This document shows, piece after piece, positions 53,166 through 55,669 of a stretch of 64,000 nucleotides of DNA. Origin of the DNA: Orenia metallireducens (GTDB lineage Bacteria; Bacillota; Halanaerobiia; Halobacteroidales; Halobacteroidaceae); the NCBI RefSeq assembly GCF_003001995.1, contig NZ_PVNB01000001.1:1-64000 (forward strand), given 5' to 3'. Every line of letters begins with the position of its first letter. Position 1 is the first letter of the stretch. The notes beneath the pieces were generated by a model. That model was not told the DNA's origin, did no database searches, and saw only the letters and a program-made list of their open reading frames with translations. A program made the translations under genes and the position numbers.

Positions 53166-53528
53166 CTATATCTCCTTTTACTATAATCTATAATTAATTT
53201 AACTTTTTAGCAAAGTAGAAGTATTAAAATTTAAATACTATTGATATATATTAATTTAATTAACCTTATTTTGATATCTATTCACATTACTAATTCTCTT
53301 TGAATTGTATTCTATTTTATTTACATTATACTAAAAATAATAATCTTTTTCATTCTTTATTTAGCAAAACACCACAGATAAAAATTGAGTTGATTTACTT
53401 ATACAATAAATTAATTTTAAAAGATAAAACTTCTAGATAATAGTTTATTGACAAAATAAAAAGAAAATGATATATTATTAAGCGTTGTCACAGAAAATAC
53501 CCCAAAAATAATTTTTGATGATTTTTTC
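53166..53528. other. AT-rich spacer before the tRNA cluster
   Basis: No ORF or structured element that I recognise. The reverse-strand reading frame that starts inside tRNA-Pro is spurious. Confidence 0.5.
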
Positions 53529-53557
53529 TTGACACACTTAAGATAATTTATTATAAT
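53529..53557 (+). promoter_or_regulatory. Promoter of the tRNA cluster
   Basis: TTGACA (53529-53534), 17 bp, TATAAT (53552-53557), perfect consensus, 39 bp before tRNA-Pro. Confidence 0.9.
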
Positions 53558-53596
53558 AGAATTTGTCGAATTGATAATTACTTCTATTTGATACGC

Positions 53597-53673
53597 CGGA
53601 GCATGGCGCAGTTTGGTAGCGCACCTGGTTTGGGACCAGGGGGTCGCAGGTTCAAATCCTGCTGCTCCGACCA
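53597..53673 (+). tRNA. tRNA-Pro (TGG)
   Basis: Acceptor CGGAGCA/TGCTCCG, anticodon loop TTTGGGA with anticodon TGG, T loop GTTCAAATC, CCA encoded. Confidence 0.97.
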
Positions 53674-53774
53674 TTTAAAATGCAGATAATAGATAACAGA
53701 TAAATTCAAAAGATTTAAGTTTTTGGAGGTTTTATCTATAATCTATTCTCTATAAACTATAATCTGAAATTCAT

Positions 53775-53851
53775 GCGCCTGTAGCTCAATCGGATAGAGT
53801 AGCAGACTTCGAATCTGAAGGTTGGGGGTTCGATTCCTCCCGGGCGCGCCA
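53775..53851 (+). tRNA. tRNA-Arg (TCG)
   Basis: Acceptor GCGCCTG/CGGGCGC, anticodon loop CTTCGAA with TCG, CCA encoded. Confidence 0.93.
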
Positions 53852-53886
53852 TTTATTAGATTATAACAACAGTTTTATTATAAAAA

Positions 53887-53962
53887 GGGCTATTAGCTCA
53901 GTTGGTAGAGCACCTGACTCTTAATCAGGGGGTCGCAGGTTCGAAGCCTGCATAGCCCACCA
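53887..53962 (+). tRNA. tRNA-Lys (CTT)
   Basis: Acceptor GGGCTAT/ATAGCCC, anticodon loop CTCTTAA with CTT, CCA encoded. Confidence 0.95.
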
Positions 53963-54023
53963 AAATCTTTTATTAAAAAACGCAAGATTGATTTTGGCAT
54001 TAGGTCATCGAGACCGTCACACT
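53958..54023 (+). repeat. tRNA-cluster spacer repeat, copy 1
   Basis: Starts CACCAAAATCTT and contains stem AATCTT/AAGATT, then GGTC-ATCGA-GACC, then CGTCACAC. It is related to the two copies after tRNA-Lys (TTT). Confidence 0.55.
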
Positions 54024-54035
54024 ATTTTAATTAGT

Positions 54036-54111
54036 GGATCATTAGCTCAGTTGGCAGAGCACCTGACTCTTAATCAGGGGGTCGCAGGTTCGAGGCCTGC
54101 ATGATCCACCA
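54036..54111 (+). tRNA. tRNA-Lys (CTT), second copy
   Basis: Acceptor GGATCAT/ATGATCC, anticodon loop CTCTTAA with CTT, CCA encoded. The acceptor stem differs from the first copy. Confidence 0.94.
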
Positions 54112-54196
54112 TATTAAAAACAGTAACGAGTGAATAGTAAGAAGTACTCAGTTAAAGAATGTTACTAGTTACTGCTCATTTAATTACTGAATTCAT

Positions 54197-54272
54197 GGGC
54201 CATTAGCTCAGTCGGTAGAGCACCTGACTTTTAATCAGGGTGTCGGAGGTTCAAATCCTCCATGGCTCACCA
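54197..54272 (+). tRNA. tRNA-Lys (TTT)
   Basis: Acceptor GGGCCAT/ATGGCTC, anticodon loop CTTTTAA with TTT, CCA encoded. Third lysine tRNA in a row. Confidence 0.95.
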
Positions 54273-54402
54273 AAAACTTTTGATTTTAAAACGATATGAA
54301 GTTTTCGGTACTTGCCCATCGAAGGCAGTGCACCAAAATTTCTTATTGAAGAATGCAATGAAAATTTGGGTTAAAAGATCAAGCCCGTCACACCATTTAA
54401 AC
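54268..54402 (+). repeat. tRNA-cluster spacer repeat, copies 2 and 3
   Basis: Copy 2 starts CACCAAAAACTT and has stem AAACTT/AAGTTT and TGCC-CATCGAA-GGCA. Copy 3 starts near 54331 with CACCAAAATTT and has stem AAATTT/AAATTT, then GATCAAGCCCGTCACACC. Confidence 0.55.
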
Positions 54403-54418
54403 AGATTAAATTTTTTAG

Positions 54419-54447
54419 TTGACAAGCAATTAAAAATGATTTATAAT
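54419..54447 (+). promoter_or_regulatory. Internal promoter before tRNA-Glu
   Basis: TTGACA (54419-54424), 17 bp, TATAAT (54442-54447), perfect consensus. It splits the cluster into two transcription units. Confidence 0.88.
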
Positions 54448-54479
54448 CTGGTATTGTGAGTAATTGATAATCCTAATAG

Positions 54480-54555
54480 GCCCCCATCGTCTAGTGGCCT
54501 AGGATACTGGGTTTTCATCCCAGCGACAGGGGTTCGAATCCCCTTGGGGGTACCA
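54480..54555 (+). tRNA. tRNA-Glu (TTC)
   Basis: Acceptor GCCCCCA/TGGGGGT, anticodon loop TTTTCAT with TTC, CCA encoded. Confidence 0.96.
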
Positions 54556-54652
54556 TTAATTAGCTACTAACTTCTAGCTATTAGTCACTAGCTTAAAACC
54601 TTTTTAAGTTCTAAGCCAGTAGCCAAAAGCTGGCAGCCAACAGCTAAAACAA

Positions 54653-54728
54653 GGGCGAATAGCTCAGTTGGGAGAGCACCTGCCTTACAAGCAGGGGGTC
54701 ACAGGTTCAAGTCCTGTTTCGCCCACCA
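54653..54728 (+). tRNA. tRNA-Val (TAC)
   Basis: Acceptor GGGCGAA/TTCGCCC, anticodon loop CTTACAA with TAC, CCA encoded. Confidence 0.96.
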
Positions 54729-54819
54729 TTTTATTTAGTTAAGAATTAAAAGTTAAAAATTAAGAGTTGTAATGATCTTTAATTATTAACTCTTCACTAT
54801 TAACTTTTGACTAATATAC

Positions 54820-54896
54820 GGGGATGTGGTGGAGTTGGTTACCACGCCGGCCTGTCACGCCGGAGGTCGCGAGTTCGAGTCTCGTCATCCTCGCCA
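54820..54896 (+). tRNA. tRNA-Asp (GTC)
   Basis: Acceptor GGGGATG/CATCCTC with one G-U pair, anticodon loop CTGTCAC with GTC, CCA encoded. Confidence 0.95.
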
Positions 54897-54960
54897 TTTA
54901 TTTTGTTAGCTTCTAGTAGTTAGCTACCAGCTATTAGCTAGAGGCAAAAAACAAAAACAT

Positions 54961-55036
54961 GCTAACTTAGCTCAGTTGGTAGAGCAGCTGACTTGTAATC
55001 AGCAGGTCGTCGGTTCGACTCCGACAGTTAGCTCCA
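54961..55036 (+). tRNA. tRNA-Thr (TGT)
   Basis: Acceptor GCTAACT/AGTTAGC, anticodon loop CTTGTAA with TGT, CCA encoded. Confidence 0.96.
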
Positions 55037-55132
55037 TTTATTTTATTAATAATTGATAATTTTCAGTTAAAAAATAAAGCTACTAAAGCTTTTATTATAG
55101 ATTGTTAGTTATTAATTAAAAACAAAATACAC

Positions 55133-55217
55133 GGAGGGGTTCCCGAGTGGTCAAAGGGAGCAGACTGTAAATCTGCCGGCGACGCCTTCAGAGGTTCAAA
55201 TCCTCTCCCCTCCACCA
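55133..55217 (+). tRNA. tRNA-Tyr (GTA)
   Basis: Acceptor GGAGGGG/CCCCTCC, anticodon loop CTGTAAA with GTA, long variable arm, CCA encoded, 85 nt. Confidence 0.96.
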
Positions 55218-55227
55218 TTTACTCTAT

Positions 55228-55259
55228 ACTTGGTTATTAACCAAGTCTTTTTATTTTTT
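55228..55259 (+). terminator. Terminator of the tRNA cluster
   Basis: ACTTGGTT/AACCAAGT stem with ATT loop and a T-rich tail. Confidence 0.88.
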
Positions 55260-55301
55260 GAATATTAATCTAAACTTATTAAAAATTAATAGATATGATA
55301 C

Positions 55302-55339
55302 AAAGAGGCGAGGATGATTTAAATCATCCTCGCCTCTTT
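55302..55339 (-). terminator. Terminator of the thioredoxin-like gene
   Basis: A perfect 19-bp palindromic stem: AAAGAGGCGAGGATGATTT and its complement. Confidence 0.9.
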
Positions 55340-55342
55340 CCA

Positions 55343-55669
55343 TTATAAGAAGGACTTTATCTGATAGTATAAGTCACTACTCTCTCTTATTCCAAAAGCA
55401 GTATATACAACCTTTCCTTCTATAAATAGCTTCAATATAGGTACACTAGATACCTGATATCGCTCTACAATCTTTGGAGAATTTGAAATAGAACATTCAT
55501 AAACTAAAATTTCAGGAAATGAATCTATGACTTGATTTAAGTTCTTCTTAGCAATCTGGCAATAACCACAGTTTTGTGAAGTAAAGAGTATCAATAAGTT
55601 CTTATAAGAATCTACTATTCTATCAAAATTATCGTCATTTACTTTAGCATATTCTATTATGCCTATCAC
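55343..55669 (-). CDS. Thioredoxin-like protein
   Basis: A 108-residue thioredoxin-fold protein with the redox motif N-C-G-Y-C in LLILFTSQNCGYCQIAKKNL and the cis-Pro segment QVSSVPILKLFIEGK. The CGYC centre differs from the CGPC of housekeeping thioredoxin, suggesting a glutaredoxin-like or specialised role. RBS AAGGAGTG. Monocistronic, with a strong terminator. Confidence 0.88.
   Translation of the reverse strand: MIGIIEYAKVNDDNFDRIVDSYKNLLILFTSQNCGYCQIAKKNLNQVIDSFPEILVYECSISNSPKIVERYQVSSVPILKLFIEGKVVYTAFGIRESSDLYYQIKSFL

Follow-up and report, generated by a model that had tools for sequence, protein, structure and literature searches.

Spacers of a tRNA gene cluster in Orenia metallireducens as probable copies of a small two-hairpin mobile element

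The window analysed here, a stretch of 64,000 nt from Orenia metallireducens, carries ten tRNA genes clustered at 53597-55217 (ARAGORN), with three related spacer units, named c1, c2 and c3, among them (Table 1). An earlier note, made from the letters of this stretch, had described three related repeats after the first tRNA-Lys(CTT) and after tRNA-Lys(TTT), and these repeats are real. With R2, a covariance model built on 47 copies, and no filters, c1, c2 and c3 reach 78.2, 51.3 and 40.6 bits versus 11.2 bits for the next best place within 53500-55300, scores that are not independent since all three units are among the 47 copies of the model. The units share the start CACCAAAA, the first stem and an ATCGA-like loop word in the region of the second hairpin, and their ends in the window are words such as GTCACA or GTGCA. 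CACCA, previously given as the start of the repeats, corresponds in c1 and c2 to the tRNA 3' end as encoded in the gene, the ACCA tail of tRNA-Lys(CTT) no. 1 being identical with the first four bases of c1; as a start that no tRNA precedes, it holds for c3. Units c2 and c3 abut, both downstream of tRNA-Lys(TTT), and the last base of c3 together with the CCATTT of the right flank yields the ACCA of what was presumably the old tRNA end.

Table 1. Features around the three units; positions are those of the window.
Feature	Position	Strand	Evidence
tRNA-Lys(CTT) no. 1	53887..53962	+	ARAGORN; Rfam RF00005, 73.4 bits
Unit c1 with its two hairpins, right at the 3' end of tRNA-Lys(CTT) no. 1	53959..54021	+	R2, 78.2 bits
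c1 first hairpin, 5' arm CCAAAATC, overlapping the tRNA CCA	53960..53967	+	Fold, -12.6 kcal/mol; family covariation
c1 first hairpin, 3' arm GATTTTGG	53990..53997	+	Fold; family covariation
c1 second hairpin, GGTC-ATCGA-GACC	54003..54015	+	Fold; family covariation data
tRNA-Lys(CTT) no. 2, without unit downstream	54036..54111	+	ARAGORN; R2 scan
tRNA-Lys(TTT), whose ACCA tail coincides with bases 1-4 of unit c2	54197..54272	+	ARAGORN
Unit c2, first stem AAAACTT/AAGTTTT, second stem TGCC/GGCA	54269..54332	+	R2, 51.3 bits; fold
Unit c3, second of the c2-c3 tandem; its second hairpin is decayed	54332..54392	+	R2 unfiltered, 40.6 bits (44.4 in another search)
Right flank of the c2-c3 array, starting CCATTT	54393..54402	+	Sequence; compare the empty tRNA-Val site

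The compensated changes reported for the first stem agree with the family in c2 and c3, but the pairing AATCTT/AAGATT read in c1 competes with the family stem CCAAAATC/GATTTTGG, whose minimum free energy is given in Table 1. The change of the second stem between c1 and c2, from GGTC/GACC to TGCC/GGCA, was seen again in the folds. In c3, the second hairpin has four broken pairs and does not form in the family register. Fold z-scores obtained from the window alone are -2.51 for c1, -1.42 for c2 and -0.79 for c3. On the evidence of the window alone the case for structure is weak, and it is the related copies that settle the matter.

A blastn search of 61 genomes with positions 54255-54420 gave matches in six of them, including two congeners and other genera, and all the matched places inspected in these relatives lie beside tRNA genes. 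Covariance models revealed a family of dispersed two-hairpin units of about 57-63 nt, present in 20 of the 30 genera of the class Halanaerobiia, a group of salt-loving bacteria: R1, built on 12 copies, matches 35 of the 59 class genomes at E<=0.1, and R2 matches 37 of the 59 at E<=0.01, with a maximum of 49 matches in a single genome (G016). At E<=0.001, 36 of 398 relatives match R2, every one of them within the class. Among the genomes searched, the family is restricted to this one bacterial class. A core-pattern scan of genome contigs returned 12 stretches, half of which (L064-L068, L075) are in or near the class by organism name. The six from other phyla (L069-L074) were discarded: with R1, a single one of them, L072, passed E<=0.05 (24.4 bits, E 0.048) and was counted as a chance match. 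The same pattern had no match in IMG/VR, and the ten matches listed from a blastn search of phage records with 53880-54480 (1124 records) proved to be tRNA genes. In Rfam, nothing above the gathering score was found over the window copies and nothing at E<=0.5 over the copies in 12 other loci; a search of the open-licence PMC literature found no description of the family. Another copy occurs downstream of tRNA-Gly(GCC) elsewhere in the window's genome.

In a first alignment of related copies (A4, 46 distinct rows), which was fitted to the model and hence leans towards the structure, 88.7% of the cells are paired versus 68.3% after shuffling, and covariation amounts to 0.541 versus 0.177 in shuffles and at most 0.083 in slid controls, with two-sided changes in all 15 pairs. 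A second alignment (A5, 127 distinct rows from 100 further loci), aligned to R2 and leaning towards the structure for the same reason, yields 89.8% of cells paired versus 63.3% in shuffles and a covariation of 0.655 versus 0.209. Its two-sided changes (546 cells versus 182 in shuffles) rule out that covariation is absent from a larger alignment. The second hairpin of the family is paired in 96.8% of the cells of A5, and the pair that closes it alternates between C-G (61 sequences) and U-A (52 sequences); for the tenth pair in the first stem there is no support, 71 of 91 cells being unpaired in A5. Given the slid controls and the magnitude of the effect, there is little doubt that the fold is conserved while its stems change, and the retained structure proposed for the three spacers is strongly supported by this covariation in related copies.

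The genomic contexts were read from 174 arrays found by two R2 searches (145 sources, 195 matches) in places picked among the better matches of the R1 and R2 scans above; three arrays are counted twice because L068 and L164 overlap on one contig, transposon copies within one genome are not independent of each other, and c3, which fell under the threshold of the array search, is outside this count. Eighteen arrays are placed precisely at the 3' terminus of a tRNA or tmRNA gene (Ala 5, Lys 4, Val 3, Gly 3, Ile 2, tmRNA 1), all in the sense orientation, and among the 174 none was antisense at such an end. The repeat is thus found near tRNA genes in relatives, where the earlier note had proposed to look for it, yet 156 of the 174 arrays are elsewhere: 28 near an IS605-type tnpB gene (26 of them antisense to it), 20 inside a palindromic repeat of G016, 16 next to a sequence resembling the complement of a ribosome-binding site, six near tRNA genes but otherwise placed and one near 16S, while the remaining 85 include sites in rRNA operons, contig ends and a structured repeat of G010. 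Rfam identified the 16S gene, in L129; the contexts given as 5S, 23S or ribosome-binding site, as well as the reading frames called TnpB, are presumed ones, recognised by eye. Units abut within arrays, with two units in 18 arrays and four in one.

Several of these hosts deserve a description of their own. The repeat of G010 (L056, L093, L094, L096, L097) is apparently structured and hosts units at two fixed positions, one of which carries a unit in L093 but not in L056; in these two loci, which were the ones tested, the repeat has no Rfam match. Within tnpB coding sequence, units occur at L047 2658-2716 and L158 1476-1534, where the net 58 nt would shift the frame. In G029, an insert of about 45 nt consisting of the first hairpin only lies inside tnpB-like frames in several copies of one transposon (L205-L211), twice in L205 and in L209. 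The many 47-nt matches of this genome were considered as an autonomous partner and rejected, as they are these first-hairpin-only inserts.

The joined flanks of many arrays match uninterrupted places. A candidate empty site was obtained for 52 of the 174 arrays, with a net insert per unit of 57-63 nt, mostly 62, although several of these candidates are joints within arrays or lie beside undetected copies; the case relies on the tRNA-Val, IS605-type, rRNA-operon and nested examples. The spacer between tRNA-Val and tRNA-Asp is filled in the congener G002 (L013, L016) and empty in the window's genome, G000 (L023), with a net difference of 63 nt and a right flank that is 100% identical in L016. 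Two IS605-type sites, between tnpB and the transposon end, are filled or empty across genomes (net 62 nt), and two sites beside rRNA genes, compared between G032 and G045, each carry a unit in one of these genomes and none in the other (58 and 59 nt). Finally, L060, L110 and L112 hold units that are interrupted midway by another unit. Read at the sequence level, these pairs show precise insertion, with 0-1 nt of the target duplicated as deduced from the net insert lengths. Among 45 de-duplicated sites that are not at tRNA or tmRNA ends, the base immediately before the unit (-1) is C in 29 (background 17%) and the preceding one (-2) is T in 28 (background 32%).

Taken together, the spacers are most probably copies of a non-coding and non-autonomous mobile element of about 60 nt with two hairpins. 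The folded single strand would be the substrate of a transposase supplied in trans, the most likely enzyme being of the Y1 HUH type (IS200/IS605 or RAYT-like), which would cut the target after (T)C and the element after its second hairpin. With a folded single strand as substrate, the stems would be free to change but would have to pair. The small size, the lack of coding capacity, the precise joints, the duplication of 0-1 nt and the conserved fold fit such movement of a folded strand in trans. Taken alone, the Y1 mechanism is advanced tentatively, as plausible and somewhat short of probable. Y1 transposase genes are present in 31 of 37 genomes with copies versus 10 of 22 without (p=0.003), a correlation that may reflect lineage and genome completeness. 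No copy was found within about 1 kb of a Y1 transposase gene in 20 regions (20 of the matches listed), and six genomes with copies have no Y1 match, including G013 (13 copies) and G047 (16). An orientation bias would be expected from lagging-strand insertion. With the terminus assumed to lie opposite dnaA, orientation to replication is biased in G030 (20 of 23), where many copies ride inside one longer repeat, and unbiased in G029 (12 of 28) and G019 (10 of 18); a general replication-strand bias was not found, only one of the three complete genomes showing it. Targeting of hairpin feet was likewise sought and not found (53 sites, 0.189 versus 0.236 in the control, sd 0.048).

At tRNA and tmRNA genes, the insertion breaks the gene between the acceptor stem and the ACCA tail. 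The arrays at these ends start with ACCA in 15 of 18 cases versus 0 of 146 elsewhere (short flanks or N excluded 10 of the 174 arrays); the three others start with ATCG (two, after a tRNA-Gly ending in CTCCA) or CTTA (one). From this contrast, the insert supplies the tRNA tail and replaces the displaced one, and the first stem is kept because the opposite arm is TGGT-like in most ACCA-start units. The simplest reading of the ACCA starts is selection: at tRNA genes mainly ACCA-start units would be tolerated, since any other start would cost the gene its encoded tail. The repetition of ACCA makes the middle segment pair with the right flank at tRNA sites, and this pairing was therefore excluded as evidence. 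In a further reading, an undescribed transposition process might recognise the junction between acceptor helix and ACCA and insert a folded unit with its own ACCA start and a matching stem partner, the short units found after tRNA-Glu and tRNA-Met (see below) being further products. We consider such a process unlikely; if it were true, minimal mobile nucleic acids would have in tRNA tails a general place to land.

The sense orientation and exact 3' position of all 18 arrays at tRNA and tmRNA ends, the pairing of the tRNA tail within the first stem and the conserved fold would also agree with functional RNAs of tRNA operons, whose first hairpin would seal the CCA end and steer 3' processing or from which a stable small RNA would be released. 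Such a role in processing, or as a small RNA cut from the tRNA transcript, was suggested in the earlier note, but it is not supported as the reason for the family. Of the arrays, 156 lie away from tRNA and tmRNA 3' ends, many of them antisense to the transcript of their host; corresponding sites occur with and without the unit, as for a mobile element; tRNA-Lys(CTT) no. 2 and the empty tRNA-Val spacer do without a unit; and the unit matches no Rfam family. The functional-RNA explanation is thus very unlikely, while an effect of the units on processing at the tRNA sites themselves is possible. Movement as RNA, by reverse splicing or ligation into RNAs followed by copying back to DNA, might be suggested by the many hosts that are RNA genes or transcribed (tRNA, tmRNA, rRNA operons, the noncoding region beside tnpB), but the mixed orientation, with sense units at tRNA genes, 26 of 28 arrays antisense near tnpB and antisense units at 16S, 5S and ribosome-binding sites (flanks read by eye), makes it highly improbable. 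Spread by nothing but replication slippage and recombination between existing repeats is barely credible: tandem arrays with shared ends, and c2-like and c3-like units whose order after tRNA-Lys(TTT) is swapped between the window (54270-54392) and the congener G001 (L010 1440-1565), would suit it, but single copies stand at unrelated sites with clean empty counterparts, and these together with the presence in 20 of 30 genera require transposition or transfer.

If the units are mobile elements, they resemble several known systems in part. The rtT RNA/tyrT spacer repeats of Escherichia coli also follow a tRNA gene and include the tRNA 3' end, but they are tied to one tRNA operon and released during processing, whereas the family described here is dispersed and mostly outside tRNA operons, which speaks against identity with rtT. 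Integrative elements that use tRNA 3' ends likewise restore this end upon insertion; in contrast, our unit has 60 nt, no integrase and many non-tRNA sites. MITEs are short, non-coding and non-autonomous like the unit, but they carry terminal inverted repeats and duplicate several bases of the target, whereas the two ends of the unit do not form an inverted repeat and the pairs examined show a duplication of no more than 1 nt. Elements derived from IS200/IS605 are moved strand-specifically by a Y1 transposase and leave no target duplication; with regard to these, the duplication of 0-1 nt fits and Y1 genes correlate, but strand bias occurs in only one of three genomes. The nearest kinds are REP elements, REPINs, the very small cyanobacterial repeats and the Rickettsia palindromic elements. 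The last two are, like our unit, tiny, repeated and inferred to be mobile. The cyanobacterial repeats measure about 20 bp (Elhai 2008, via PMC2884548), and insertion at a tRNA tail with an ACCA start, as seen here, is absent from the part of PMC2884548 that gives an account of them. REPs are units of 20-40 bp with one hairpin and an unpaired GTAG or CGTC tag at one end (Di Nocera 2013, PMC3733652). The likeness to REPs and REPINs lies in short, non-coding, dispersed palindromic units with compensated stems; movement in trans by Y1 transposases is assumed for REPs and REPINs. The unit here differs by its 57-63 nt, its two hairpins, its head-to-tail joints and the lack of a GTAG or CGTC tag as defined in the relevant passage of PMC3733652, since a CGTC-like word after its second stem has its C paired. 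It also differs from REPINs, whose units flank a RAYT gene, in that no unit lies beside the 20 Y1 genes examined. The main text of PMC3733652 contains no mention of Halanaerobium.

As a whole, the element has the look of a tRNA-gene parasite whose own ACCA spares the host. A mobile unit of about 60 nt with filled and empty sites in close relatives makes its movement directly testable, and the class offers a natural collection for finding the enzyme that moves very small repeats. For some REP-like families, such as the CGTC group, the section of PMC3733652 on these families leaves the moving enzyme unsettled. Besides, our results carry a warning that spacers of tRNA clusters with covariation need not be regulatory RNAs.

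Other short sequences accompany tRNA genes in these genomes. Short units of another kind follow tRNA-Glu(ttc) in three genomes (L016 1205-1316, L014 1700-1830 and L091), in L016 as two 56-nt units in tandem. They form hairpins with different stems and end in a copy of the last bases of the tRNA (GGGTACCA or GGGGTACCA), and from their sequence they look like a second family ending in the tRNA tail. In the window's genome, two tandem units of about 41-44 nt lie downstream of tRNA-Met (L021, 719-794, minus strand), each of them ending in GTGCAACCA, which is close to the end of tRNA-Met. In the window itself, the spacers at 54129-54193, 54556-54640, 54735-54815 and 54900-54950 consist of imperfect palindromes (AGCTACTAGCTATTAG-like and AACTATTAACT-like), and such palindromes are also found between tRNA genes elsewhere in the genome. 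Finally, a 27-nt inverted repeat with no spacer, at 55294-55347 after the last tRNA gene, is possibly the terminator of the cluster.
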